From Sandaracinaceae bacterium (GTDB lineage: Bacteria; Myxococcota_A; Polyangia; Polyangiales; JAFGIB01): a DNA stretch of 64,000 nucleotides. The DNA is taken from positions 23,049-87,048 of the forward strand of contig JADGRF010000034.1 in assembly GCA_017881055.1 (NCBI GenBank), given 5' to 3'. A model generated the notes under the pieces. The model saw only the letters and a list, made by a program, of their open reading frames with translations. It did not search any database and was not told where the DNA came from. Position 1 is the first letter of the stretch. Each line of letters opens with the position of its first letter. The position numbers and the translations under genes were made by a program. Of this stretch, positions 3,146 to 41,647 are shown in pieces.

Positions 3146-3236
3146 AGCGTTTTGACGCTCGCTGCAGGTGCGTGTCCGTCCCGCAAGCCCCGAGATTGAC
3201 GCGCACGGGCCCGCGAATGCGCTAGATTGGTGGGCC

Positions 3237-4319
3237 ATGGATATCTTCGTCACGGGCGGCGCCGGCTTCATCGGCTCCAACTTCCTGAACTTGCTCGTGC
3301 CTCGGCACCCAGAGCATCGCTTCATCAACGTCGACACGCTCACCTACGCGGCCAACCTAAAGAACTTGGTCTCGATTGCGGATCGGCCGAACTATCTGCT
3401 CGAGCGCGTAGACATCGCCGACCGTTCGGCCGTACGCGAGGTGTTTGCACGCTACAGCCCCCAGATCGTCGTGCATTTCGCGGCCGAGAGTCACGTGGAC
3501 CGCAGCATCCACGCGCCGGACTCGTTCATCGAGACGAACATCACCGGAACCTTCAACCTACTGGAAGCGTTCCGCGCGCTGCCTGCCGGCACGGGCAAGC
3601 TGTTCCACCATGTCAGCACCGACGAGGTGTACGGCTCACTGGGCGAGAAGGGGCTCTTCACCGAGCAGACGGCGTACGACCCGTCGAGCCCGTACTCGGC
3701 GTCCAAGGCTTCCAGTGACCACCTCGTGCGCGCATACCACCGCACGTATGGCTTGCCAGCCAAGATCACCAACTGCTCGAACAACTACGGGCCGTATCAG
3801 TTCCCGGAGAAGCTCATCCCGCTGATCATCCTGAACGCCGCCGAACAGAAGCCGTTGCCGGTCTACGGCCAGGGCAGCAACGTACGCGACTGGCTGTACG
3901 TGGAAGATCACTGCGAAGCGATCTGGGCGGTGATGGAGAAGGGGCGACTCGGCCATACCTACAACGTCGGCGGCCGCAACGAGAAGAAGAACTTGGACGT
4001 GGTGAAGACCATCTGCAGCTTGGTCGCGCGTGAGCAAGGCGTCGCGGAGCAGACACTGCTGGACTTGATTCGCTTCGTGCCGGATCGGCCCGGTCACGAC
4101 CAGCGCTACGCCATCGACGCGAGCAAGGTGATCGCGGAGTGCGGCTGGAAGCCGAAGCGCGACTTCGAGAGCGGTATTCGCGACACGGTGCGCTGGTATC
4201 TGCAGAACGCCTCGTGGGTGAACGACGTGCGCTCGGGCGAATACCGTCAGTGGATCGAGACGAACTACGCGGCGCGGCAGACACAGAGCACACGCGAGAC
4301 CACGGGAGGTACGCCGTGA
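3237..4319 (+). CDS. rfbB: dTDP-glucose 4,6-dehydratase
   Basis: This 360-residue extended SDR enzyme converts dTDP-glucose to dTDP-4-keto-6-deoxyglucose, the second step of dTDP-L-rhamnose synthesis. Visible hallmarks are the N-terminal nucleotide-binding GGAGFIGS, the STDEVYG motif, and the catalytic YSASK (YxxxK). The length is normal for RmlB. The ATG at 3237 was chosen because [13 protein letters not shown] is the conserved start; the longer ORF adds non-homologous sequence. A -10-like TAGATT lies only 8 bases upstream, hinting at a very short leader. Its stop overlaps the GTG of rfbA, so the two are translationally coupled at the head of rfbBACD. Confidence 0.97.
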
Positions 4320-5191
4320 TCGAGAAGGGCATCATTCTCGCCGGTGGCACCGGCACGCGACTTCATCCGCTGACGCAGGCCGTGAGCAAGCAGCTCATGG
4401 CCGTGTACGACAAGCCGATGATCTACTACCCGCTCACGACGCTCATGCTCGCGGGCGTGCGGGACGTGCTGGTGATCACGACGCCGCAGGATCGCGCCAC
4501 GTTTGCGAGCTTGCTGGGCGACGGCGCAAAGTGGGGCATGAAGATCAACTACGCAGTGCAACCGAGCCCGGATGGGCTCGCGCAGGCGTTCCTGATCGGG
4601 GAGCAATTCATCGCGGGGGCGGGCTGCGCGCTCGTGCTGGGCGACAACATCTTCTATGGAGCGGGTCTCGCGGAGGCGCTGCGCGCCGCGGCGGGGCGCA
4701 CGAGCGGTGCCACGGTGTTCGGATACTGGGTCAAGAATCCAACGGCCTTCGGCGTCGTGGAATTCGACGCGAACGATCGCGCCATCAGCATCGAGGAGAA
4801 GCCTGCACAGCCTCGCTCGAACTATGCGGTGACTGGCGTGTACTTCTACGACTCGGAGGTGGTCGCGTTGGCGAAGAGCCTCAAGCCCTCGACGCGCGGC
4901 GAGCTGGAGATCACGGATCTCAACCGGCTGTATCTCGAGCGCGGTACGCTGCGCGTGGAGAAGCTCGGTCGGGGAACGGCGTGGCTGGATACCGGTACAC
5001 CCGATGCGCTGCTGCAAGCGGCGAACTTCGTGCAGACGCTGCAAGCTCGCCAGGGGCTGCAAATCGCGTGTCCGGAGGAAATTGCGTTCCGACTTGGCTG
5101 GATCGATGCGCTGCAATTGCGCAGCCTCGCGGGGCCGCTGGCCAAGACTGCGTACGGGCAGTACTTGCTCGACGTGGCACAGGGTGCCTGA
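4316..5191 (+). CDS. rfbA: Glucose-1-phosphate thymidylyltransferase
   Basis: The enzyme makes dTDP-glucose from dTTP and glucose-1-phosphate, the committing step of dTDP-rhamnose synthesis. The N-terminus carries the nucleotidyltransferase signature [23 protein letters not shown] and [15 protein letters not shown] segments follow, as in RmlA. At 291 residues it matches the family. The GTG at 4316 was chosen over the ORF start because it follows GGGAGGT and begins the conserved EKGIILAGG. The GTGA overlap with rfbB supports an operon. Confidence 0.97.
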
Positions 5192-5209: not shown

Positions 5210-5761
5210 ATGCGCGTACTGACCACGAGTCTGCCTGATGTGCTGTTGATCGAGCCTGCGGTCTTCGGTGACACGCGCGGTTTCTTCTTCGAGTCGTGGC
5301 ACGCGGAGCGCTACGCGAAGGCCGGTGTGCCGCACCAGTTCGTGCAGGACAACATCTCGCGTTCGCAACGCGGCATCCTGCGCGGCCTGCATCTGCAGAA
5401 TCCGTTCGCGCAGGGCAAGCTCGTGTACGTGCTCGAAGGGGAAGTGTTCGACGTCGCGGTCGACGCGCGTGTGGGCTCGCCGAGCTTCGGCCGCTGGACG
5501 GGGCACACGCTCTCGGCCGAGAACAAGCACCAGCTGTACATCCCGCCGGGCTTCGCTCACGGCTTCTGCGTGACGTCCGACGCAGCCCTGTTCGCGTACA
5601 AGTGCACGGACCTGTACCACCCCGAAACCGAGATCAGCCTCGCGTGGAACGATCCCGCGCTGGCCATCCCCTGGCCGATCGCAGAACCGGCCCTATCTAC
5701 CAAGGATCAGAAGGCGCCACGCCTCTCCGAGGTCGCTCAAGACCGCCTGCCGCGCTACTGA
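5210..5761 (+). CDS. rfbC: dTDP-4-dehydrorhamnose 3,5-epimerase
   Basis: This 183-residue cupin-fold RmlC epimerises C3 and C5 of the dTDP-4-keto sugar. The conserved segments are GFFFESW, the substrate-binding GILRGLHLQ, and PPGFAHGF followed by YKCTDLYHPE, which includes the active-site Tyr region. It follows rfbA by 18 bases in the same direction and has the family's usual length. Confidence 0.96.
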   Translation: MRVLTTSLPDVLLIEPAVFGDTRGFFFESWHAERYAKAGVPHQFVQDNISRSQRGILRGLHLQNPFAQGKLVYVLEGEVFDVAVDARVGSPSFGRWTGHTLSAENKHQLYIPPGFAHGFCVTSDAALFAYKCTDLYHPETEISLAWNDPALAIPWPIAEPALSTKDQKAPRLSEVAQDRLPRY

Positions 5762-5807: not shown

Positions 5808-6704
5808 ATGTCGACCGAACCGAAGCGCGTTGCACCTCTTTTCTTGATCAGCCCCGACGGCATGCTCGGGCGCGCATTCTCCGCGCTGTTCGAAGGAAAG
5901 GCTGGGGCTTCGCGAACGCGAATCCCAGGACAGCGATTGCCGTTCGACGCCCTGTCGTACCCGAGCCTGGATCTGCGCGACGCCAGCAGTATCGAGCGCG
6001 CCGTGCAGCCGGGCTGCTCGCTCGTGATCAACTGCGCCGCGTACACCGACGTGGATGGCGCGGAGCAGCACGAGGCGGACGCCAACGCAGTGAATGCCGA
6101 AGGCGTAGGCCTGCTCGCGGCGCGCTGCCGCGCGGTCGGCGCGTGCCTTTTGCACTTCAGCACCGACTACGTGTTCGACGGACGCGCCAGCACGCCGTAC
6201 CCGGTGGACGCTCCGCGCGCACCGCAAAATGCCTATGGACGCAGCAAGGCCAGGGGCGAGGAGCTGCTCGAAGCGTCGGGCGCCGAGTACCTGATCGTGC
6301 GCACGAGCTGGCTGTACGCCCCGTGGGGAAAGAACTTCGTGGACACGATCGCGCGTGCTGCGCGCGAGCGGCCCGCACTGCGCGTCGTGAACGACCAGCG
6401 CGGCCGACCAACGAGCGCCGAATACTTGGCCGAGCGTTCCTTCGCGCTCGCGACACAGGGCGCACGCGGCGCGTATCACGTGACGGACGGCGGCGAGTGC
6501 ACTTGGTACGACTTCGCGAGCGAGATCGTCCGGCTCGAGGGCGCGAGCGCACGCGTCGAGCCCTGCACCAGCGCCGAGTTCGTACGGCCAGCACAGCGAC
6601 CCGCGTACAGCGTGCTCGACCTCGCGCGCACCGAGTCGCTGCTCGGACCGTCGCGACCGTGGCAGGAGAATCTCGCGGACGTGCTGCGGGCCCGCAGGTC
6701 CTGA
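5808..6704 (+). CDS. rfbD: dTDP-4-dehydrorhamnose reductase
   Basis: The 298-residue SDR enzyme reduces the 4-keto sugar to dTDP-L-rhamnose. It shows a nucleotide-binding DGMLGRAF, the DYVFDG motif and the catalytic YGRSK (YxxxK), with AYTDVD as in RmlD. The N-terminal glycine motif is slightly degenerate (ISPDGMLG rather than GxxGQLG). Residues about 34-40 (SRTRIP) are encoded by a palindromic repeat that also occurs inside an ABC-transporter gene at 54.8 kb, so this loop may be a lineage-specific insertion. The gene ends one base before the next ORF. Confidence 0.94.
   Translation: MSTEPKRVAPLFLISPDGMLGRAFSALFEGKAGASRTRIPGQRLPFDALSYPSLDLRDASSIERAVQPGCSLVINCAAYTDVDGAEQHEADANAVNAEGVGLLAARCRAVGACLLHFSTDYVFDGRASTPYPVDAPRAPQNAYGRSKARGEELLEASGAEYLIVRTSWLYAPWGKNFVDTIARAARERPALRVVNDQRGRPTSAEYLAERSFALATQGARGAYHVTDGGECTWYDFASEIVRLEGASARVEPCTSAEFVRPAQRPAYSVLDLARTESLLGPSRPWQENLADVLRARRS
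5904..5926. repeat. Dispersed palindrome, copy A (inside rfbD)
   Basis: The core TTCGCG-AA-CGCGAA is a perfect palindrome with partly complementary G/C flanks, followed by CAGGA. The same core with the central AA replaced by TT is found at 54811-54828; related hairpins lie at 19416-19436 and 57332-57351. Confidence 0.6.
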
Positions 6705-6705
6705 A

Positions 6706-9700
6706 ATGGCGAACGGCGGCGTCAAGGAGTCCGTAGAGGACACGGTAAAGGAAACCGTAGCCGCAGGCGGCTTGGACAGAGGGGCCAGCGAGGATTCCGC
6801 GCGCCAGGGATCGGTCGGCCGTGAAAGACTCGCTCTGCGCGTCGCGATCGCCGCCACGTTCACTGCGAATCCGATCGAAGCCCCCCTGCGCTTCTGGCTC
6901 GATCAGCTCGGCTTCGCGGGCGATGTCGAGCATGCGCCGTACAGCCAAGTCTTCCAAGCGCTGCTCGACCCGATGAGCGCGCTCGGGCAGAATGACGGCG
7001 GCGTGAACCTGGTGCTAGTGCGCTTCGAGGACTTCCTGCGCTTCGCGAACGCCGTCGACGCCGGCCGTGATCACGAAGCGCTGCTCTCGGCCCGGGTCGA
7101 AGAGCTGGCGTCGGCGCTGCGCAGCTACGCGAGCCGCCAAGCCACCCCGACGCTACTCTGGATCGGACCCGCCTCGACCGCGGCGCAGGCGAATCGCGAG
7201 CAGTGCGCGCTGTTCGCACGGCTCACCGAGACCTTGCTCGCGCGTGTGCAAGATCTGCCGAGTGTGCAGCTGCTCGAAGAACGAGCGCTGTCGCCGTACC
7301 CCGTACCGGTGATCTACGACGCGCGCCGCGATGAGATCGGCCACATTCCGTATGCGCCTGCATTCTTCAGCGCGCTCGGCACTGCGATCGCACGGCGCAT
7401 CTACGCGCTGAAGACACCGGCCATCAAAGTGATCGCGCTGGACTGCGACAACACGCTCTGGCGCGGCGTCGTGGGCGAAGACGGCCTGCGCGGCATCACG
7501 GTGCCGGAGGGCATGCTCGCGCTGCAACGCGCCGTGATCGAGCAGCAGACGCGCGGCGTGGTGCTTTGTCTGCTCAGCAAGAATGCGGAAGAAGACGTGC
7601 TCGAGGTGCTCGACCACCACGCAAGTATGCTGCTGACGCGAAAGCACCTCGTGGGCTATCGCATCGACTGGCAGCCGAAGGCACGGAACATCGCCGAGCT
7701 CGCGCGCGAGCTGAACCTCGGGCTCGATAGCTTCCTGTTCATCGACGACAACCCGGTCGAATGCGCGCACATGCTCGCGGCGCATCCGCAAGTGCTCACG
7801 TTCATGCTGCCCAAGGACGACACGCAGATTCCGTCGTTCTTGGAGCATTTGTGGCCGCTCGATCGGTTGCAGGTGACCGAGGAAGATCGGATGCGCACGC
7901 GCATGTACCAGGAGAACGCGCAGCGCAGCTCGCTCGAGCGCCAAGCAGGCAACATCGCCGCGTTTCTCGAAGGGCTCGAGCTCGAGGTGGACATCGCGCC
8001 ACCCGTGCCCGGCGAGATTCCGCGCATCGCACAGCTCACGGGCCGCACCAACCAGTTCAACTTCACGACCATCCGTCGCAACGAGGCCGACATGGCGCAG
8101 CTCACCAGCACAGGGCTCGAGTGCATGCGCGTGACGGTCAGCGACCGCTTCGGCGCGTACGGTCTGGTCGGCGTGATGATCTTCGGTGCACAGGGCGAGG
8201 TCCTGCGTATCGATACGCTGCTCCTCAGCTGTCGCGTGCTCGGTCGCGGCGTCGAGCACGCGATGCTGCGCGAGCTCGGCAAGCTCGCGCTCGCGCGTGG
8301 TGCTCGCAGCATCGAAGCACCGTTCTCGCCGACCAAGAAGAATCAACCGGCGCAGAACTTCCTGGAGAGCTTGGGCGTACCCGCGGAACCGATTGCGGGT
8401 GGCACCCGCTACACGATCGATGCGGAGCTCGCGGCCGGACTCGAGTATCGCCCCGGCGCGGACGCGGCGGCGCAGCTCGAGCTGGCGCGCACGGGCGGGA
8501 AGACTGGCCCTGCTGCCGCCGTCGGCAACGAAACGGCGCGCTACAGTGCCAGCGCCGTCTTGCAGCGCGTGACAAGTGAATGGCGTTCCGTCGATGCCGT
8601 GCACGCGGCCATCGAAGCCAGCGCGATCACGACGCGGCCTGAGCTCGACGTTGCGTGGACTGCGCCGCGCAACGTGCTCGAGCGAGAGCTGTGCGAGCTT
8701 TGGCAGCGCCTGTTGCACATCGATCGAGTCGGGGTAAACGACGATTTCACCGCGCTCTCGGGCACGTCGCTGGCAGCCGCGCAACTGTTCGCGGAGCTGG
8801 ACGAGCGCTACAGCGTGAAGCTACCGATGACGACTATTCTCGATGCGCCCACAGTGGCGGCGCTCGCGCTGCGCATCGCGGACAGCGAGCGCTCGGAAGC
8901 CCACAGCTCGCTCCGTACGTTGCGCAAGGGCAAGCCCGGGGGCCCCAAGCTCTTTCTGGTGCACGACGGCGATGGCGAGACGCTACTCTATTTGAACCTT
9001 GCGCGGCGCCTACCAGAGGAAGTGACGGTCTACGGGATCGAGCCGCTCGGCGATGCGCGCGTGCCCATGCGCCACACCCGCATCCCGGACATGGCCAAGC
9101 ACTATCTCGATCTCGTCACGCGCGAAGCGCCGGACGAGCCGTATTGGCTCGGCGGGATGTGCGCGGGCGGAACGATCGCGTTCGAGATGGCGTTGCAGCT
9201 CGAGGCACGCGGACGGCGTGTGCCGCTGGTCGCGCTGCTCGACTCGGCCGACCCGGAAGCCAAGCCGAAGCGCGGCATCCAGAGCAAGCGGCGCCTCACG
9301 CGCTTCGTGAACGCGCTGCGTGGGCGCTCGCAGCCGCCTCCGCCACCGGATGCGCCGAGCGCCGAGCTGATCGCCGCCAACGCCAACAAGGCGAAGGTTG
9401 CAGCTAACAGTTCCGGCGCGCATGGCGAGGAGAGCCGCCTGCAGCGCGCCGCCGCCAAGCTCAAGAACGTGATCGTGTACGAGACGCAGACACGCCTGGC
9501 GGCGCGTGACCAGCGCACGCGCTTCGCGGACTTGCGTCAGGTGCTCGAACGTGGAAAAGTCGTCCCCCCACGCCTGCAGCACCTGTCGGTGCGCACGGTC
9601 TACGATCTCGCGCAGGAAGAGTACGTGCCGAGCCGCGCGCCGAACGCCCACGTGGCGTTGTTTCGCGCGACCGGCGGTGAAGGCGGCGACGAGGCGTTCG

Positions 9701-9858
9701 TGCACCTGTACGAGGATCCGCTGCTCGGCTGGCAGCCGCGCCTGCGCCGGCCGCTCGAGGTGCTCGACATGCCGGGTGGTCACGCCAGCATGTTGCAGGA
9801 GCCGTACGTGGCGACCATGGCCGAGCGCATGGCCGCATGTATAAAGAAGACATCATGA
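6706..9858 (+). CDS. FkbH-type HAD / GNAT-like / acyl carrier / thioesterase fusion
   Basis: The 1050-residue protein has four parts. Residues about 40-230 are an FkbH N-terminal region. Residues 235-390 are a HAD domain with DCDNT (D246, D248). Residues about 390-570 are the GNAT-like region typical of FkbH (TNQFNFTT). A carrier domain at about 655-730 has the phosphopantetheine serine in SGTSLAA. Residues about 745-1050 are an alpha/beta-hydrolase thioesterase whose nucleophile elbow reads GMCAGG, with Cys819 in place of serine. FkbH proteins load a glyceryl unit from 1,3-bisphosphoglycerate onto a carrier protein. Here loading, carrying and off-loading are on one chain, one base after rfbD and overlapping a glycosyltransferase. 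The inferred role is making or transferring a glyceryl or lactyl-type decoration for the polysaccharide; the acceptor is unknown. Confidence 0.9.
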   Translation: MANGGVKESVEDTVKETVAAGGLDRGASEDSARQGSVGRERLALRVAIAATFTANPIEAPLRFWLDQLGFAGDVEHAPYSQVFQALLDPMSALGQNDGGVNLVLVRFEDFLRFANAVDAGRDHEALLSARVEELASALRSYASRQATPTLLWIGPASTAAQANREQCALFARLTETLLARVQDLPSVQLLEERALSPYPVPVIYDARRDEIGHIPYAPAFFSALGTAIARRIYALKTPAIKVIALDCDNTLWRGVVGEDGLRGITVPEGMLALQRAVIEQQTRGVVLCLLSKNAEEDVLEVLDHHASMLLTRKHLVGYRIDWQPKARNIAELARELNLGLDSFLFIDDNPVECAHMLAAHPQVLTFMLPKDDTQIPSFLEHLWPLDRLQVTEEDRMRTRMYQENAQRSSLERQAGNIAAFLEGLELEVDIAPPVPGEIPRIAQLTGRTNQFNFTTIRRNEADMAQLTSTGLECMRVTVSDRFGAYGLVGVMIFGAQGEVLRIDTLLLSCRVLGRGVEHAMLRELGKLALARGARSIEAPFSPTKKNQPAQNFLESLGVPAEPIAGGTRYTIDAELAAGLEYRPGADAAAQLELARTGGKTGPAAAVGNETARYSASAVLQRVTSEWRSVDAVHAAIEASAITTRPELDVAWTAPRNVLERELCELWQRLLHIDRVGVNDDFTALSGTSLAAAQLFAELDERYSVKLPMTTILDAPTVAALALRIADSERSEAHSSLRTLRKGKPGGPKLFLVHDGDGETLLYLNLARRLPEEVTVYGIEPLGDARVPMRHTRIPDMAKHYLDLVTREAPDEPYWLGGMCAGGTIAFEMALQLEARGRRVPLVALLDSADPEAKPKRGIQSKRRLTRFVNALRGRSQPPPPPDAPSAELIAANANKAKVAANSSGAHGEESRLQRAAAKLKNVIVYETQTRLAARDQRTRFADLRQVLERGKVVPPRLQHLSVRTVYDLAQEEYVPSRAPNAHVALFRATGGEGGDEAFVHLYEDPLLGWQPRLRRPLEVLDMPGGHASMLQEPYVATMAERMAACIKKTS

Positions 9859-10820
9859 CCACGAGCTACGAACGGGTGCTGATCGTCATCGTGAACTACA
9901 AGTCCGCGCGTTTGACTCTGGACTGCCTGGCTTCGCTCGAGCCGGAGCTGCGCGGAGTACCCGATGCGCACGTGGTCGTCGTGGAGAACGCCTCGGGCGA
10001 TGGCCCTGCGCTCGAGGAAGGCATCCGCACGCGCGGCTTCTCGGAGTGGGTCACGCTCGACTTGTCGGACAAGAACGGCGGCTTCGCGTACGGCAACAAC
10101 CGCGCGATCGCGCCTGCGCTGGCGTCAGCGAAGCCTCCCGCGTACGTGCTGCTCTTGAATCCCGATACGCGCATCTACCCTGGCGCGGTGAAAGAGCTGC
10201 TTGCCTTCATGGATCGCCGGCCCGACGTGGGCATTGCCGGCAGCAGCTTCGAAGACGACGAAGGCGAGGATTGGCCGTACGCGTTTCGCTTTCCCAGCGT
10301 GTGGAGCGAGCTCGATCGGGGCTTGCAGCTCGGTGTCGTGACGCGCCTGTTGAGCGAGCACGTGGTGGCCCAACGCATGGGCAAGACCGAAGCCCCGATC
10401 GACTGGGTGCCGGGCGCGAGCATGATGATCCGCTCGCAGGTGTTCCGCGACATCGGCCTGATGGATGACGGGTACTTTCTGTACTACGAGGAAACCGACT
10501 TCTGCTTGCGCGCGAAGCGAGCGGGCTGGCCGACCTGGTACGTGCCGCAGAGTCACGTGGTGCACATCGCCGGGCAGAGCACGGGCGTCACGCAGCGCAA
10601 CCGGCGCCCTCCGCGCACGCCCGAGTATTGGTTCGCATCGCGACGCCGCTACTTCACGAAGAACCACGGGCTCGCCTATGCGATCAGCGCCGATCTGCTC
10701 TTCGGCACGAGCTTCGGTCTGTCGCGCGCGCGCCACGTGCTGACGCGCAAGCAAGACGGCGACCCGCCGAAACATCTGCTCGATCACTGGAAGAACAGCG
10801 TGCTCTTCAAGCGCGGCTGA
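9855..10820 (+). CDS. GT2 glycosyltransferase, rhamnosyltransferase-like
   Basis: The 321-residue protein has the GT2 start VLIVIVNYKSA, LLNPDTRI (DxD region) and YYEETDFCLRAKRAGW, the acidic catalytic block seen in WbbL-type rhamnosyltransferases. The ATG at 9855 overlaps the preceding TGA in an ATGA pair, so it is translationally coupled to the FkbH fusion and the rfb genes. It probably transfers L-rhamnose from dTDP-rhamnose to a lipid-linked glycan; the donor is inferred from the operon. Its 3' end overlaps the convergent GT4 gene by 14 bases. Confidence 0.9.
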   Translation: MTTSYERVLIVIVNYKSARLTLDCLASLEPELRGVPDAHVVVVENASGDGPALEEGIRTRGFSEWVTLDLSDKNGGFAYGNNRAIAPALASAKPPAYVLLLNPDTRIYPGAVKELLAFMDRRPDVGIAGSSFEDDEGEDWPYAFRFPSVWSELDRGLQLGVVTRLLSEHVVAQRMGKTEAPIDWVPGASMMIRSQVFRDIGLMDDGYFLYYEETDFCLRAKRAGWPTWYVPQSHVVHIAGQSTGVTQRNRRPPRTPEYWFASRRRYFTKNHGLAYAISADLLFGTSFGLSRARHVLTRKQDGDPPKHLLDHWKNSVLFKRG

Positions 10821-13062: not shown

Positions 13063-13172
13063 TGGATCTACGATGTGCCACCGCTCCGCGCGATGCCAAG
13101 CCCCCCCGAACGGGTTTGTGTATCACCCGAAGCCGTTGATCTCAATGAGGTTACGTACTAGAGAGCCCGAGC

Positions 13173-15038
13173 GTGCCCGACCCGGCTCAGACTGATAAGA
13201 AGTGCGTCATCATAGGTGCCGGTCCAGCAGGCCTCACGGCTGCGTGGGAGCTGTGCAAAGCCGATGTGCCCGCGATCGTGTTCGAGAAGGACAACATCGT
13301 CGGCGGCATCTCGCGCACGGTCGAGTACAAGGGCTTTCGCTACGACATCGGCGGCCATCGCTTCTTCACCAAAGTCGAGTCGGTGAACAAGTGGTGGTGG
13401 GAGATCCTGTCGAAGGAGTTCATCGAACGCCCGCGCATGTCGCGCATCTACTACGCCGATAAGTTCTTCGACTATCCGCTCAAGCCCGCCAACGCGCTGT
13501 TCGGCTTGGGCATCTTCGAAGCCATCCGTTGCGGCCTCAGCTACGTGACGGCGCAGGTTGCGCCGACCAAGCCCGAGATGAACCTCGAAGACTGGGTCAG
13601 CAACCGCTTCGGCACGCGCCTCTACCAAATCTTCTTCAAGACCTACACCGAGAAGGTGTGGGGCATGCCGTGCACCGAGATCAGCGCCGACTGGGCCGCG
13701 CAGCGCATCAAGAACTTGAACTTGATGACCGCGGTGAAGAACGCGCTGTTCGGCTCGGGCAAAGGCAAAGTCGTCACCACGCTGATCGAGTCGTTCCACT
13801 ACCCGCGCCTGGGCCCCGGCATGATGTGGGAACGCGTTGCGGAGCTGCTCACGGAGAAGGGCCTGCCGCCGCGCATGGAGCTCGACGTGGTGCGCATCAC
13901 GCACGACGGCAAGCGCGTCGTGTCGCTCACCGTGCGTGGCAAAGACGGCGTCGAGCACGTCGAGACCGGCACCGACTTCATCTCGACCATGCCCGTGCGT
14001 GAGCTGGTGCATGCGCTCGATCCGGCGCCGCCTAACGCAGTGCTCGAAGCGGCCGATCGCCTGAACTACCGCGACTTCCTGACCGTCGGTCTGATCATCG
14101 ACAAGGAGGAGATCTTCCCGGACAACTGGATCTACATCCACTCGCCGCACGTGAAAGTGGGCCGCATCCAGAACTTCCGTTCCTGGAGCCCGTTCATGAT
14201 CCCGGACGCGAAGAAGAACTCGATCGGCCTCGAGTACTTCGTGAACGAGGGCGACGAGATCTGGAACGCATCCGATCCGGATCTGATCGAGCTGGGCAAG
14301 CGCGAGTGCGAGAAGCTCGGCTTGTTCAAGGCAGCTGACGTCAGCGACGGTGTCGTGATCCGCATGCCGAAGGCCTACCCGGTCTACGACAAGATCTACA
14401 AAAACGCGCTGCAGACCATCCGCGACTACCTCACGACCTTGCCGAACATCCACCTCGTGGGTCGCAACGGCCAGCACCGTTACAACAACCAAGACCACTC
14501 CATGGTCACGGCGATGCTCGCAGCGGAGAACGTGTGCGGCGCCGACCACGACGTGTGGGCGGTGAACGTCGACGAGGAGTACCACGAGGAAGTCTCCGAA
14601 AAAGAGAAGCGCGGCCAAGAGCTCACGCACGGCAAGCGCGGCGGCGGCGACCGCTTGGTGCCGCGACGCCTCGACGAAACCGACAGGCTCATGGGCGCGC
14701 TGCGCGAGGCCTTCGCCCGCTACGACGCCGTGGCGCTCGGCGGCTCGATCGGCATCCTGCTCGGCGGAAGTCTGTTCTTGGCTACGGCGCTCTTGCTGCT
14801 GCGCGGCGGCGTCATGGTCGGCAAGAACCTGGCCCTGCTCGCGAACTACTTCCTGGGCTACGAAATCAGCTGGGCGGGCGCGTTCCTGGGTTTGCTCGAG
14901 GCCGGCGGCTTTGGCTTCATCTTCGGATTCATGTTAGCTAAGGCGATCAACGGGACGATCGCGCTGCACGAGCATGCGCTGGTGCGCCGGCTCGAAGTGA
15001 GCGCGACTCTCGACGCGATCGACGAGGAGCGCCAGTGA
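13173..15038 (+). CDS. FAD/NAD(P)-dependent amine-oxidase-like oxidoreductase with two-helix membrane tail
   Basis: The 621-residue protein begins at a GTG just before the Rossmann motif [15 protein letters not shown]. It has the GHRFF block typical of protoporphyrinogen-oxidase/UDP-galactopyranose-mutase-like flavoproteins, and [14 protein letters not shown] near residue 440 as the second FAD contact. Such proteins often sit in polysaccharide loci and probably act on a nucleotide- or lipid-linked sugar; the reaction here is unknown. After about residue 500 a tail with two transmembrane helices follows ([11 protein letters not shown], then [12 protein letters not shown]). This tail is repeated as the separate next gene. 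A GTGA overlap links the two. Confidence 0.88.
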
Positions 15039-36118: not shown

Positions 36119-37348
36119 ATGCGCCACGCCGCGATCGCGATTTCCGTCCTGTGTCTGGCCCCGACCGCCGTGTTTCCGGCCCAGGCGCAGCCGAAGCCGG
36201 CGCCGGCGCCGCAACGATACAGCGCGCACTTCTATCGCTTGGCGGCCGATCCCGGCAGCGTGCAAGCCTCGGCGCGGCTGCTGCAGGCGCTCACTCTCCT
36301 GCAGCAAGCGGCGCAGGTGCTGCCAACCGATTGGCGATCTCTGTGCGAGCGCACACTCGCGCTGCAACTGTCGCCGGAGCACGGAGACGAGGCGGCCCAG
36401 CGCGCGGGCAAGGAACAGGCGCTGCAGCTGGTCGCACGACAGGCCGAGGCGCGCCGCAGCATGATCGACGCCGCGCTTGCGACGCTCGACAGCGCGCTCG
36501 CGCTCGCGCCACAGAATGTCGATCTACTTTACGTGCGCGCGCGCGCACTGGCGGCGTGGGAGCAACCGGTTGCGCCGCCTCCGCGTGCTCGGTCCGGGCC
36601 CGTGGCCCCGCCTCGAGGCTGCGACGTGCAGCGACGCGACACCGAAGCCAGCGCTGCGCTCGAGCTCGTGATGCAGGTCGACCCGGGCTACGCCGCCAAC
36701 CAAGTCGCGTTCGAGCTCGGCATCGAGCGAACGCGCCTGCACGACTTCGCGGGCGCGGCCGAGGCGTACGCGCGCGCCATCGAGCTCACCTGGCGGGCGC
36801 ACGACGCAGCCATCAGCGAAGCGAACTTGGCCGAGGTCACGATGCTCGCGGGTGATCCGGCCGGCGCGCTTCCGCACTACCAGCAGGCGCTGGGCTTGTC
36901 CGGTGGACCGGGCGGGACGCGCGACTACGCGCTCGCACGCTTCGGGATCGCGGTGGCCGAGGATCGCCTGGGCGAGCACGAGAAAGCGCTGACGAGCGCG
37001 GCCCAGGCCACGGAGAGCGCCGGCCGCACGCTCTCGGCGCTCGAAGCAGACGGCGTGTTCTTCGAGCCAGCCTACGAACGGCACTACTACCTCGCGCTCG
37101 GCCACGAGTCGCTCGCGCAGCTGGCACCCGAAGCGCGTGCAGCACACCTGGCAGCCGCACGGCTGGAGTATCAGGCCTTCGTCACGGCCGCCCCGGAAAG
37201 CGACCCTTACCGGGAAGCGGCGCAGACAGACTTGGGGGCCATCGTGCGCGAGCTCGCAGCCCTACCTCACCCAGTCGCGCCGAAGCCAGATCGTCAGCTG
37301 GAACGACTCAAGCCACGACGGCAGTCGCCGTCCGGCGCTGCAAAATGA
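36119..37348 (+). CDS. Periplasmic TPR-repeat protein
   Basis: The 409-residue protein starts at ATG 36119 with a signal peptide (ending AVFPAQAQ). Helical TPR-like repeats follow, clearest at 195-300 (AAEAYARAIELT, ALPHYQQALGL). The 60 codons before this ATG in the ORF track lie in the divergent promoter region. The C-terminus is Pro/Arg-rich. No enzyme motif is seen, so a scaffold or assembly role is likely. Its last 41 bases overlap the convergent ketosynthase-like gene, an unusually long overlap. Confidence 0.75.
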   Translation: MRHAAIAISVLCLAPTAVFPAQAQPKPAPAPQRYSAHFYRLAADPGSVQASARLLQALTLLQQAAQVLPTDWRSLCERTLALQLSPEHGDEAAQRAGKEQALQLVARQAEARRSMIDAALATLDSALALAPQNVDLLYVRARALAAWEQPVAPPPRARSGPVAPPRGCDVQRRDTEASAALELVMQVDPGYAANQVAFELGIERTRLHDFAGAAEAYARAIELTWRAHDAAISEANLAEVTMLAGDPAGALPHYQQALGLSGGPGGTRDYALARFGIAVAEDRLGEHEKALTSAAQATESAGRTLSALEADGVFFEPAYERHYYLALGHESLAQLAPEARAAHLAAARLEYQAFVTAAPESDPYREAAQTDLGAIVRELAALPHPVAPKPDRQLERLKPRRQSPSGAAK

Positions 37349-38522
37349 CCGCGGACGCATTGCCGTAGTAGCCCACGGCGAGCACCAGCACGTGCTCGAT
37401 GTGCTCGGGCCGCTTGCCCTGCACGACCGGGCCGATCTCGACGCCATCGAACCAGCTGAGCACGCAGGCCATCGCCAGGGCACCGGCGGCACCGAACGTC
37501 TCGCCGAACAACGCCTTCGGCGCGATCACGCACGGCCGCGCGCCCAGCACGGCTTCGATACCCGACAGCTCCGCGGCATCGAAATGCGGGATGCCGCTCG
37601 CCGCGCTCGCCACGACGTCGATGTCGGCCGCCGTCAGCTGCGCATCCGAGAGCGCCATGCGGATCGCGCGCTGCACCGCGAGCGGCGAGACGTGCACGAG
37701 TAGCGCCTGCGACTCCGGCGGCTCGAACGCATTGCCATAGCCCACGATGTCGGCGAGCACATGCGCACCGCGGCTCTTCGCGAACTCCTGCGTCTCGAGG
37801 CATAGGTACGCAGCCCCCTCGCCCAGGCGCATGCCCTGGCTTTCACGGCGACCCGGCGCGAACACGCGCTCGCCCTCCGCCAACACATCGAGCTTGCGGA
37901 ACGCCAAGTACAGCGGCTCGCTCAGCGATTCACCGCCGCCGACCAGAAACGCGTCAGCGCGCCCGTTGCGCAAATGAGTCTCGCTGCTGAGCACGGCGTC
38001 GAGCGAGCCGCAGTTGCCGTCGACCACGGTCACGTTCGGAGCGCGCAGGTCTTCCCAGATGCTCACGTAACCAGCCGCCGCGTTGATCACGGTGTTCGGA
38101 AAGCGGTTGGGATTCAGAAAGCGCGGGTCCTCGAGCTCGGAGACCTGCACCGCTTCGGTGATCGCTTCGAGCGAGCCGTACGCCGTCGCGGAGCACAGGC
38201 CAATGCGATGCGGCGAGAACTTGTGCACACCGTCCTGCTTGAGCCCGCTGTCCTCGAGCGCGAGCTTGGCCGCGACGATCAAGAGCTTGGTCAAACGATC
38301 GAAGTTACGCAGGCCCTTGTCGCCCAGGTAGTGCTTGGCGTCGAAGTCGAAGCACTCGGCCGCTGTCGGCTGCGGAATGATCTTCGGATCGAGGCACGAA
38401 GGATGATCGTGGAACACGTCGGGGCCGCCGCGCGAGTGCGCGACCAGCGCCCGCCGGAAGGCTTCGGCGCCAATGCCGATCGGGCTGACCAGCCCGTAGC
38501 CGGTGATCGCGTACGGGTTCAC
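37308..38522 (-). CDS. Ketosynthase-like partner protein with altered active site
   Basis: The 404-residue thiolase-fold protein starts with GTG (VNPYAITGYGLVSPIGIG) in a GTGA overlap with the upstream ketosynthase gene. The nucleophile-elbow Cys is present (GNCGSL, Cys171). However, the HGTGT His position reads AASGIP, and the second His motif reads FGETFGAAG (Glu for His). Both catalytic histidines are therefore missing. Type II systems pair an active ketosynthase with a chain-length-factor-like partner; retention of Cys but loss of both His is not the classical chain-length-factor pattern. The inferred role is a heterodimer partner of the neighbouring ketosynthase. Confidence 0.88.
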   Translation of the reverse strand: MNPYAITGYGLVSPIGIGAEAFRRALVAHSRGGPDVFHDHPSCLDPKIIPQPTAAECFDFDAKHYLGDKGLRNFDRLTKLLIVAAKLALEDSGLKQDGVHKFSPHRIGLCSATAYGSLEAITEAVQVSELEDPRFLNPNRFPNTVINAAAGYVSIWEDLRAPNVTVVDGNCGSLDAVLSSETHLRNGRADAFLVGGGESLSEPLYLAFRKLDVLAEGERVFAPGRRESQGMRLGEGAAYLCLETQEFAKSRGAHVLADIVGYGNAFEPPESQALLVHVSPLAVQRAIRMALSDAQLTAADIDVVASAASGIPHFDAAELSGIEAVLGARPCVIAPKALFGETFGAAGALAMACVLSWFDGVEIGPVVQGKRPEHIEHVLVLAVGYYGNASAVILQRRTATAVVA

Positions 38523-39805
38523 GGGGCGACGGCTGCAGCGGCCGCAGCCGCGTTGTCGGAGAGAGCCGCCCTGTAGGCCTCGTTCGGATCCGGCAAGCGA
38601 CCCGGCTTGGCAAACGCGACCACGGCATCGTACCCGCCGAACGCGAGCGCGTTGTTGAGCACGATGTCGGCGCGACCGCTGGCCGCGCGGTTCGCGACCA
38701 AGTTGAGATCGCACTCGGGGTCGGGCGTCTCGTAGCTCACGGTGGGCGGATAGATGCCCGTCTGCACGGTGAGCACGCAAGCCACGGCTTCGAGCGCGCT
38801 GGCCGCACCCATGCAGTGCCCGAGCATGCCCTTCATGCTGCTGACCGCGACCGGACGCGAGCCGAACACCTCGCGGATCACGAGCGCCTCGACCTTGTCG
38901 TTGGCGTGCGTGCCGGTGCCGTGCGCGTTGATGAAGTCGATGTCGTCGGCGGTCACGCCGCTGCGCGCGATCGCTTCGCGCATGGCAACCAAGCTGCCGA
39001 TGCCCTCGGGATGCGGACGTGTGATGTGATGCGCGTCGCACGCCAGGCCCGTGCCGCCGATCTCGGCCATCGGCGTTGCGCCACGGCGCACCGCGTGCGC
39101 TTCCGACTCGAGCACGAGCACGCCCGCACCTTCACCGACGATCAAGCCCTTGCGGTTCTTGTCGAACGGCTGACAGCGCTCCGGCGCCACCGCACCCAAG
39201 CGCACGAAGCCCGCGAACTGCAGCTTCTGCAGGAGCTCGCTCGCACCGGTGATCACGACATCCGCGCGCCCTGCGCGGATCAAGTCCGCTGCAAACGCGA
39301 TCGAGTAGTTGCCAGCTGCACACGCGGCCGGCAGCGTCTGCACCATGCCGCGCGCACCGAACGCACGCGCCAAGTGGATGGGCAGGAGCGTGGAGCCGTA
39401 GAGCGGAAGCTTGTTCGGCAGCACGGCATCGTTGCCGCCGTGAATCCACGATTCCTCGAGCTCACCGATCACGTCGGCCTCACCCATCGTCGTGCCCAAG
39501 ATCACAGAGGTGCGATCACCCGCCAGGTGCTTCGGTAGCAGCCCCGCGTCGGTGACGGCCATGCGTGCTGCGGCGAGCGCGAACGCGGAGCAACGACCCA
39601 TGCGGCGCGCTTCGGCGGCCGTGAGAAAGTCGCGCGGGCTGAAGCCTTTGACCTCGGCGGCGACGGTGCGATCCAGCGTCTTGGTGTCGAAGCTCTCGAT
39701 CGTCGAGAAGCCCGAGCGCCCCTCGACGACGGCCTTCCAATACGCGTCGCGGCCAAACCCGAGTGAGCTGACGACGCCGAGACCCGTGACATAGACGCGT
39801 GACAT
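38519..39805 (-). CDS. Beta-ketoacyl-ACP synthase II-like
   Basis: The 428-residue condensing enzyme starts at ATG 39805 (MSRVYVTGLGVVSSLG), where homology begins. The full catalytic triad is present: Cys162 in PAACAAG, His295 in NAHGTGTHAND and His330 in KGMLGHCMGAAS. The length and fold match FabF and type II polyketide KS-alpha. It is translationally coupled to the altered partner and divergent from the fatty-acyl-AMP ligase by 144 bases. It probably elongates ACP-bound chains made with the two nearby carrier proteins. Confidence 0.93.
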   Translation of the reverse strand: MSRVYVTGLGVVSSLGFGRDAYWKAVVEGRSGFSTIESFDTKTLDRTVAAEVKGFSPRDFLTAAEARRMGRCSAFALAAARMAVTDAGLLPKHLAGDRTSVILGTTMGEADVIGELEESWIHGGNDAVLPNKLPLYGSTLLPIHLARAFGARGMVQTLPAACAAGNYSIAFAADLIRAGRADVVITGASELLQKLQFAGFVRLGAVAPERCQPFDKNRKGLIVGEGAGVLVLESEAHAVRRGATPMAEIGGTGLACDAHHITRPHPEGIGSLVAMREAIARSGVTADDIDFINAHGTGTHANDKVEALVIREVFGSRPVAVSSMKGMLGHCMGAASALEAVACVLTVQTGIYPPTVSYETPDPECDLNLVANRAASGRADIVLNNALAFGGYDAVVAFAKPGRLPDPNEAYRAALSDNAAAAAAAVAP

Positions 39806-39814
39806 TCGTGCGAA

Positions 39815-39843
39815 GCTATAGCGTCCGCGATCCGCCACCGCAA
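39815..39843 (-). promoter_or_regulatory. Candidate promoter for the ketosynthase pair
   Basis: Read on the minus strand, a TTGCGG -35-like box and a TATAGC -10-like box are 17 bases apart. The -10 ends 9 bases before the ATG at 39805, so transcription would begin within a few bases of the start codon. Confidence 0.35.
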
Positions 39844-39911
39844 GGTTGCGACACGCACACGACACGTGTTCCGGCCGGCCGACTGGCCTAATTTCCTCGG
39901 GGAATTGTCGC

Positions 39912-39941
39912 TTGACACGGTGTCGCTGCGGCCCGTAGATA
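39912..39941 (+). promoter_or_regulatory. Candidate promoter for the acyl-AMP ligase operon
   Basis: A perfect TTGACA -35 (39912-39917) is followed after 18 bases by TAGATA, 8 bases before the ATG at 39950. This again predicts a leaderless or nearly leaderless transcript. Confidence 0.45.
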
Positions 39942-39949
39942 GGCGCGCC

Positions 39950-41647
39950 ATGGCGCCCTCCGACCAGGACACGCTCGTGTCTTGCCTAGCGAATCTACCG
40001 CGCGGCGAAGCGCGTGGCTTTCGTTTCCGCAATCTTCTTGGCGGCGAGGACGGCAACGAGCGCTACTTCCCGTTTCAAGAGCTGGAGCGCGAAGCCAAGG
40101 TGCGCGCGGCCCGCCTGCACGCTCTCGGGTTGCGCAAGGGCGATCGCATCGCGCTCGTGATCGCCGACCCGGCCGAGTTCGTGCTGAGCTTCCTGGGTGC
40201 CGCTGTTGGCGGCATCGTGCCGGTGCCGATCTACCCGCGCGCCAGCTTCAAGGCCAAGAACGCCTACGTCGAGACGGTCAGCCACATCGTGAAGGCGGCC
40301 GGCGCGAAGGTCTTGCTGCTCACGGAGTCCAGTAAGCCCGTGGTCGAAGAAGTGCTGCAGCACGACACGGGGCTCTCCGAGCTGGTCGTGCTGGAAGAGT
40401 GGCTCACGCGTCCGGTCGTGCCGACCACGCTGCCGACCATCGCGCCCGAAGACCTGTGCTTTCTGCAGTTCACCTCGGGCAGCACGTCGTTGCCCAAGGG
40501 CGTGATGGTCACGCATCGCAACCTCGTGGCGAATGCGCGCGCGTTTCTCGGTGAGCGCGGCATCGCTCGCACCGACGACGACGTCGCGGTGACGTGGCTT
40601 CCGCTCTATCACGACATGGGCTTGATCGGCTTCGTGCTCGGCACGCTGGTCTGCAACATCAACACCGTGCTCTTGCCGACCGAAGCGTTCGGGCGTCGTC
40701 CGAATGTGTGGATCGACTGCATGCACAAGTACGGCGGCACGATCACCTTCGCGCCGAACTTCGCCTACGGCCTCGCCACCAAGCGCGCGCGCGACAAAGA
40801 TCTCGAAGGCCTCGACCTCAGCAAGTGGCGCATCGCCGGCTGCGGCGCAGAGCCCATCAACCCCAAGGTGATGCGCGAATTCGCCGAGCGCTTCGCACGC
40901 TGCGGCTTCAACGCCAACGCGCTCATGCCCGCGTACGGCATGGCGGAAGCCACGCTCGCGATCACGTTCCACACGCGCGGCACACCGATCATCACCGATC
41001 GCGTGGATGCGGATCGTATGCAGCAGGGCAAAGCCGTGCCGACGGATGCTCCCGCGGAAGGCGTGGGTGGTGTGCTCGAGCTGATCAACTGCGGGCACCC
41101 GTTCCCCGGCCACGCGGTGAAGATCGTGAACGAGCTGGGTGAGACGCTCGCGGATCGCGAAGTCGGCGAGATCTGGGCGAACGGCGCCAGCATCACGGCC
41201 GGCTACTACGGCAACCCCGAAGCCACCGCAGCCACGTATACCGACGGTTGGCTGCACACCGGCGACCTCGGCTACATGGTGAACGGCGACGTCTACGTGT
41301 GCGGGCGCTTGAAGGATCTAATCATCATCCGCGGCGCGAACTTCTACCCGCAGGACATCGAGTGGGCCGTCGCCGAAGTCGAAGGCGTGCGGCGCGACAA
41401 CGTGGTCGCGTTCAGCGTGATGCGTGAGGGCGAAGAAACGCTGATCGTGTCCGCGGAAGGTAACTCGACCGACGCAGCCACACTGCGCAGGACCATCGCC
41501 ACCAAAGTCATGGAGACCACGGGCCTCGCCGTCGGCCACGTCGCGGTCGTGAAAGTCGGCTCACTGCCGAAGACCTCGAGCGGCAAGGTTCAACGCCGCC
41601 GCACCAAAGCGCTGTTCGAGAGCGGGCAGCTGGAAGAACACAGTTAA
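39950..41647 (+). CDS. Fatty-acyl-AMP ligase (FAAL-like adenylating enzyme)
   Basis: The 565-residue ANL-superfamily enzyme has the AMP-binding FTSGSTSLPKGVMVTH, WLPLYHDMGLIG, AYGMAEATL, TGDLGYMVNGDVYVCGR and the C-terminal catalytic lysine context PKTSSGKVQRR. WLPLYHDMGLIG and the overall spacing are typical of FAALs, which pass acyl-adenylates to carrier proteins rather than CoA. The ATG at 39950 follows a promoter-like TTGACA/TAGATA. It leads a plus-strand set with two carrier proteins and a thioesterase and probably loads the starter acid. Confidence 0.93.
   Translation: MAPSDQDTLVSCLANLPRGEARGFRFRNLLGGEDGNERYFPFQELEREAKVRAARLHALGLRKGDRIALVIADPAEFVLSFLGAAVGGIVPVPIYPRASFKAKNAYVETVSHIVKAAGAKVLLLTESSKPVVEEVLQHDTGLSELVVLEEWLTRPVVPTTLPTIAPEDLCFLQFTSGSTSLPKGVMVTHRNLVANARAFLGERGIARTDDDVAVTWLPLYHDMGLIGFVLGTLVCNINTVLLPTEAFGRRPNVWIDCMHKYGGTITFAPNFAYGLATKRARDKDLEGLDLSKWRIAGCGAEPINPKVMREFAERFARCGFNANALMPAYGMAEATLAITFHTRGTPIITDRVDADRMQQGKAVPTDAPAEGVGGVLELINCGHPFPGHAVKIVNELGETLADREVGEIWANGASITAGYYGNPEATAATYTDGWLHTGDLGYMVNGDVYVCGRLKDLIIIRGANFYPQDIEWAVAEVEGVRRDNVVAFSVMREGEETLIVSAEGNSTDAATLRRTIATKVMETTGLAVGHVAVVKVGSLPKTSSGKVQRRRTKALFESGQLEEHS

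Follow-up and report, generated by a model that had tools for sequence, protein, structure and literature searches.

A predicted FkbH–carrier–thioesterase chain paired with a GT2 glycosyltransferase in a rhamnose operon, a candidate enzyme of glycan acylation

FkbH proteins are held to turn 1,3-bisphosphoglycerate into glyceryl-ACP (PMC7489565). The thioesterase (TE) of Pks13 releases its product on polyols, with trehalose preferred, which is a precedent for a TE acylating a sugar (PMC9210659). Type I TEs carrying a cysteine variant exist as well, for example SulM (PMC11298585). Gellan, a rhamnose-containing exopolysaccharide, bears L-glycerate (PMC9104527), and the flagellar sugar of Campylobacter jejuni can carry dimethylglyceric acid (PMC7099621; PMC3068675). 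The literature searched names no enzyme for the attachment of glycerate to bacterial glycans, and a search on FkbH together with polysaccharide and glyceryl returned no paper.

The window, i.e., the whole analyzed stretch of 64,000 nucleotides from a Sandaracinaceae bacterium, contains at positions 6706–9858 an intact plus-strand ORF of 1050 open codons. Its product (1050 amino acids) comprises an N-terminal region, an FkbH domain, a carrier domain, and a TE, in this order and on one chain (Table 1). This was the only FkbH gene found in the source genome. A scan of genome contigs with a single sequence returned one distant FkbH, located in a betaproteobacterial glycan-type locus, and nothing else. 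Upstream lie rmlB, rmlA, rmlC, and rmlD, whose products all surpass the NCBIfam equivalog cut-offs. A single base separates the end of rmlD (6704) from the ORF, whose TGA stop codon (9856–9858) overlaps the ATG of the following GT2 glycosyltransferase gene at 9855, so that both share the sequence ATGA. The six genes look like a single transcription unit with the FkbH gene in fifth place. The earlier note, made from the sequence alone, had given the same tight spacing on both sides. It had also called the downstream neighbor rhamnosyltransferase-like; the match of this GT2 to the rhamnosyltransferase model TIGR01556 is weak (42 bits, cut-off 200.55), so rhamnosyltransferase identity is not established and that name was dropped. 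Farther downstream, a gene similar to flavin amine oxidoreductases (13173–15038, plus strand), with a weak match to UDP-galactopyranose mutase, is located between glycosyltransferase and polysaccharide deacetylase genes. The minus-strand ORF 13158–14630 opposite to it matched no family, had an odd composition, and was discarded as spurious.

Table 1. Features of the rml–FkbH–GT2 region in the window
Feature	Position	Strand	Basis
rmlB, dTDP-glucose 4,6-dehydratase	3237..4319	+	TIGR01181, 477 bits (cut-off 365); ATG start chosen, ORF opens at 3168
rmlA, glucose-1-phosphate thymidylyltransferase	4316..5191	+	TIGR01207, 487 bits (cut-off 361); GTG start chosen, overlaps the rmlB stop
rmlC, dTDP-4-dehydrorhamnose 3,5-epimerase	5210..5761	+	TIGR01221, 248 bits (cut-off 156)
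rmlD, dTDP-4-dehydrorhamnose reductase	5808..6704	+	TIGR01214, 253 bits (cut-off 224)
FkbH–carrier–thioesterase protein, 1050 aa	6706..9858	+	Pfam and NCBIfam matches
N-terminal region, residues 46–237	6841..7416	+	Position of the FkbH_N domain; 34–46% identity in homologues
FkbH domain, residues 238–558	7417..8379	+	TIGR01686; HAD motifs D246/D248, S291, K325, D347/D348; conserved C509
Carrier domain, residues 661–722	8686..8871	+	PF00550, 47.7 bits (cut-off 20.8); pantetheine site Ser688 in SGTSL
Thioesterase, residues 748–1045	8947..9840	+	PF00975; Cys819 in GMCAGG, Asp846, His1026
GT2 glycosyltransferase	9855..10820	+	ATGA overlap with the FkbH–carrier–TE gene; homologue fused to that protein in G003

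The FkbH domain matched TIGR01686 over positions 1–319 of the 323 of the model (298 bits, cut-off 146.65), and residues 241–356 gave a HAD-IIIC match of 63.8 bits. Residues 748–876 matched the Pfam Thioesterase family PF00975 (80.8 bits, cut-off 26.4). Since the carrier domain also lies above its cut-off, the combination of FkbH, carrier, and TE on one chain that the earlier note had proposed is borne out, and the HAD and carrier motifs that it had pointed to are present. For the N-terminal region of about 190 residues, a Pfam search returned no match, though the region is conserved in homologues. The TE itself was recognized correctly, but its nucleophile had been overlooked: it is Cys819 (GMCAGG) instead of the usual serine. 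The protein thus lacks the GxSxG serine of type I TEs, while Asp846 and His1026 are kept. Alignments pair Cys819 with the serine position in the TE of NocB and with a cysteine in that of AB3403. All FkbH residues of Table 1 (D246, D248, S291, K325, D347, D348, and C509) as well as S688, C819, D846, and H1026 are identical in both full-length homologues, from Aquisphaera and from genome G003 (see below). Because these catalytic residues are invariant, no domain looks dead, neither the HAD and carrier domains for which the earlier note had raised this concern nor the TE. A single-sequence AlphaFold2 model had a mean pLDDT of 39, too low to be of use.

The cysteine is found in all six TEs joined to FkbH, whether on one chain or as a close neighbor (window, Aquisphaera, G003, G456, G391, and Streptomyces NBC_00441). 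The TEs of PKS genes adjoining the same GT2 family carry serine, as does the TE of a large FkbH-containing PKS in Ensifer (L073).

We propose, with a probability of roughly 0.58, that the protein, on one chain and in cooperation with the adjacent GT2, both loads and transfers an acyl group, placing glyceryl on a sugar handled by this glycosyltransferase. Removal of the phosphate from a phosphoglyceryl group and loading of glyceryl onto a carrier are the activities attributed to the FkbH family. Here, the FkbH domain would take phosphoglyceryl from 1,3-bisphosphoglycerate, dephosphorylate it in the HAD active site, and load glyceryl onto the carrier, at the thiol of the pantetheine on Ser688. 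The carrier would hand it to Cys819 of the TE, from which the sugar added by the neighboring GT2 would receive it on a hydroxyl or an amine; this acceptor sugar probably belongs to a rhamnose-containing exopolysaccharide. We infer that the TE transfers rather than hydrolyzes, that a sugar is the acceptor, and, because of the FkbH family membership, that the acyl group is glyceryl. Since relatives in other phyla adjoin, or are fused to, a GT2 of the same kind, the protein probably decorates a surface polysaccharide. The earlier note had suggested a self-contained chain that loads and off-loads a three-carbon acyl group for glycan decoration. Comparative genomics strengthens this reading as a lead, and gene context backs it best: pairing with the GT2 is conserved, GT2 fusions occur in two genomes, and in another phylum an exopolysaccharide locus exists with and without the gene. 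The support is partial, in that the glyceryl identity would follow from the FkbH family and transfer instead of hydrolysis is part of the proposal.

Three full-length proteins with a GMCAGG TE were found, including that of the window, and all of these closest homologues have a link to sugars. A plasmid of Aquisphaera giovannonii (Planctomycetota) encodes a protein of the same architecture (47% identity), located directly behind a GT2 that is 45% identical to the GT2 of the window, with rfbC and rfbA nearby. The surroundings form an exopolysaccharide/exosortase locus with genes for a tyrosine autokinase, a sugar transferase, and an ABC transporter. On plasmids of Paludisphaera borealis and Planctomyces SH-PL62, the genes surrounding the GT2 follow a closely similar order, but the FkbH–carrier–TE gene is missing. 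The presence of related plasmid loci with and without the gene suggests an optional decoration and not a step in backbone synthesis. In G003, a genome from the family of the source organism, a GT2 (47% identical) is fused behind the FkbH–carrier–TE part in a protein of 1360 residues; the 6.8-kb contig contains no polysaccharide gene besides the fused GT2. In G001, from the genus of the source genome, a contig begins inside a TE, and the ORF at this contig end continues into a fused GT2. Streptomyces NBC_00441 has the parts together as separate genes (an FkbH–carrier protein, a further ACP, a Cys TE, glycosyltransferases, and dTDP-sugar genes). Among 398 sampled Pseudomonadota genomes, no full-length homologue of the GMCAGG type was detected; the best match was a condensation–FkbH–carrier fragment at a contig end.

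When the GT2 served as the only query against 183 genomes of the source order, 38 places reached E 1e-50 or better. Neighborhoods were read by eye, and 22 of the 38 lie beside, or are fused to, genes for carrier(–TE) proteins or hexapeptide acyltransferases: 18 with PKS, NRPS, or FkbH carrier genes (TE present in all but one) and four with hexapeptide acyltransferases. About 12 of the 34 assessable places had no adjacent acyl gene (four of the 38 could not be judged). As a control, we inspected homologues of three further window glycosyltransferases; none of them (0/18) lay beside such acyl genes. A script count over all loci gave an acyl neighbor for 26 of 45 distinct GT2 genes, in a set that is partly biased, because some loci were entered via the TE. 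The pairing was also seen in Gloeothece verrucosa, where a GT2 with 50% identity is overlapped by an NRPS that has a carrier and a GLCAGG TE at its C-terminal end. Behind the GT2 of G479 come a hexapeptide–FkbH fusion and then rmlBACD; a predicted acyltransferase of another fold here stands in for the TE. In a GT2 tree of 43 rows, in which many forks are weak, the kind of neighbor changes at least 13 times, and FkbH–carrier–TE neighbors fall on at least two branches. The recurrent pairing with acyl genes, the fusions, the replacement by a hexapeptide domain, and the switching of neighbors argue that acyl transfer and this GT2 family belong together. At gene level, the same pattern would fit a modular class that we put forward tentatively, at somewhat less than even odds: one GT2 family would cooperate either with a TE and interchangeable loading modules (FkbH, NRPS, or PKS) or with a hexapeptide domain, and surface polysaccharides in several phyla would in this way receive acyl groups, for the most part directly from carrier proteins.

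These observations also bear on the role of the TE. It might be a hydrolase that releases the free acid or edits misloaded carriers, with shared regulation as the only link to the glycosyltransferase, and type I TEs do mostly hydrolyze or cyclize. However, the TE–GT2 fusions in G003 and G001 and the replacement of the TE by a hexapeptide acyltransferase in G479 speak for transfer, and free hydrolysis would be a wasteful route that spends 1,3-bisphosphoglycerate and gives merely free glycerate. We consider this role highly improbable.

Two further kinds of assembly-line genes were observed during the survey. One is a PKS with a C-terminal carrier–TE and a length of about 2200 residues; it usually adjoins the same GT2 family, often together with a MupA/Atu3671-type NRPS (L075–L085, L176–L178, L098, and L100; L082 is contig G000:C219 of the source genome itself). 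These PKSs mostly share 47–56% identity; their loci, several of which are polysaccharide-type, belong to the source order or lie on plasmids of Rhodobacterales. The other is an NRPS of locus L124 (3624–8090) that begins with a formyltransferase domain and ends in a carrier–TE with GLCAGG.

FkbH genes at large have other surroundings. Of 76 FkbH genes in a non-random sample, 25 adjoin PKS/NRPS genes without a sugar gene, 11 have sugar, MBOAT, or mixed surroundings, and 40 have neither. The FkbH–carrier–TE proteins of G456 (peptide-synthetase region; L122) and G391 have a different TE type (GWCLGG) and no GT2 nearby; the architecture alone is therefore no proof of a glycan role. The earlier note had held that homologues in polyketide clusters with no link to sugar genes would count against its reading; this applies in part to the wider family, given the 25 genes beside PKS/NRPS genes and the lack of a nearby GT2 in G456 and G391, but not to the homologues with GMCAGG. 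An alternative product is conceivable on these grounds, namely a small metabolite for secretion or storage, such as an ester of glycerate or glycosylated glycerate, that the GT2 glycosylates, the rml genes just supplying dTDP-rhamnose. FkbH genes often serve natural products, in the above sample as well as in described pathways (PMC7489565), and the G456 gene adjoins peptide synthetases. Against this stand the position of the Aquisphaera homologue within an exopolysaccharide locus with autokinase, sugar transferase, and transporter genes and the occurrence of the GT2 family in polysaccharide-type loci without any natural-product gene, so that we regard a metabolite as unlikely, if the most credible of the alternatives. 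Three loci with FkbH genes beside MBOAT and SGNH-like genes (L034, 8539–14736; L035, 58–4925; L087, 8874–14647) likely represent a second route by which a carrier-bound acyl group is placed on a polymer. In addition, a Pseudomonadota locus (L212, 4504–15329) combines a polyprenyl glycosylphosphotransferase, rml genes, FkbH, a MaoC–SDR protein, a hexapeptide acyltransferase, and a sulfotransferase, and an IMG/VR contig (L164, 8501–9523) encodes an FkbH-like protein with an epimerase-like gene nearby.

The transferred group need not be plain glyceryl if, after loading, enzymes encoded elsewhere altered or extended it by methylation, oxidation, or peptide or polyketide extension. Methoxymalonate pathways oxidize and methylate FkbH products (PMC7489565), and an FkbH–carrier protein in G963 adjoins a MupA-type NRPS and an exopolysaccharide-type PKS. 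In the rml operon, on the other hand, we saw neither a ketosynthase or condensation domain nor a methyltransferase or an FkbI/FkbK-like dehydrogenase; one has to go about 27 kb to reach the nearest genes for a ketosynthase (37308–39041) and an AMP-binding protein. Such a modification appears quite unlikely. The distant genes, a ketosynthase gene and a DIP2-like AMP-binding gene (37308–41647), may form a small separate biosynthetic locus.

Exopolysaccharides owe their gel and surface properties to acyl groups. If the proposed transfer of glyceryl to a GT2-handled sugar is true, parts of natural-product assembly lines decorate exopolysaccharides with an acyl group drawn from glycolysis. The one-chain form makes this chemistry directly testable with a single protein.

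The glyceryl-ACP synthases of the FK520 and tetronate pathways (e.g., Mad7/Mad14 of tetromadurin) likewise use an FkbH with HAD motifs that delivers to a carrier. There, the ACP is separate and glyceryl enters polyketide extension or tetronate ring closure, whereas in the window carrier and TE share the chain and the partner is a glycosyltransferase. Around the gene, the FabH-like ring-closing enzyme, separate ACP, acyltransferase, and dehydratase of a glycerate-utilization (tetronate) operon are absent, the neighbors being rml and glycosyltransferase genes. The two dehydrogenases and the O-methyltransferase of methoxymalonyl-ACP pathways are absent from the rml operon and the next annotated genes. 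The flagellar glycan locus of C. jejuni is described as having an fkbH-domain gene, cj1302, and the two studies that describe the dimethylglyceric acid make no link between cj1302 and this group (PMC7099621; PMC3068675). Gellan of Sphingomonas shares the combination of rhamnose and a glycerate ester, for whose addition the literature search found no enzyme. Its L-glycerate sits on glucose (PMC9104527), and the configuration is a point against our proposal, as D-glyceryl is expected from 1,3-bisphosphoglycerate. AB3403 (PDB 4zxh), an NRPS, is the best solved relative of the carrier–TE part (165 bits) and has a cysteine at the nucleophile position (GGWCFGG), but it is loaded by condensation and adenylation domains and has no glycan link here. 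Pks13 is the best NCBIfam match to the carrier–TE stretch (94.9 bits) and also ends in a carrier and an alpha/beta-hydrolase TE that acylates a sugar (PMC9210659). It differs in its very long, PKS-made mycolic chain and its serine nucleophile, in place of FkbH loading and a cysteine. The parts of the protein are known from described systems; what is new is the variation in which a chain with a cysteine TE is coupled to a glycosyltransferase for polysaccharides.
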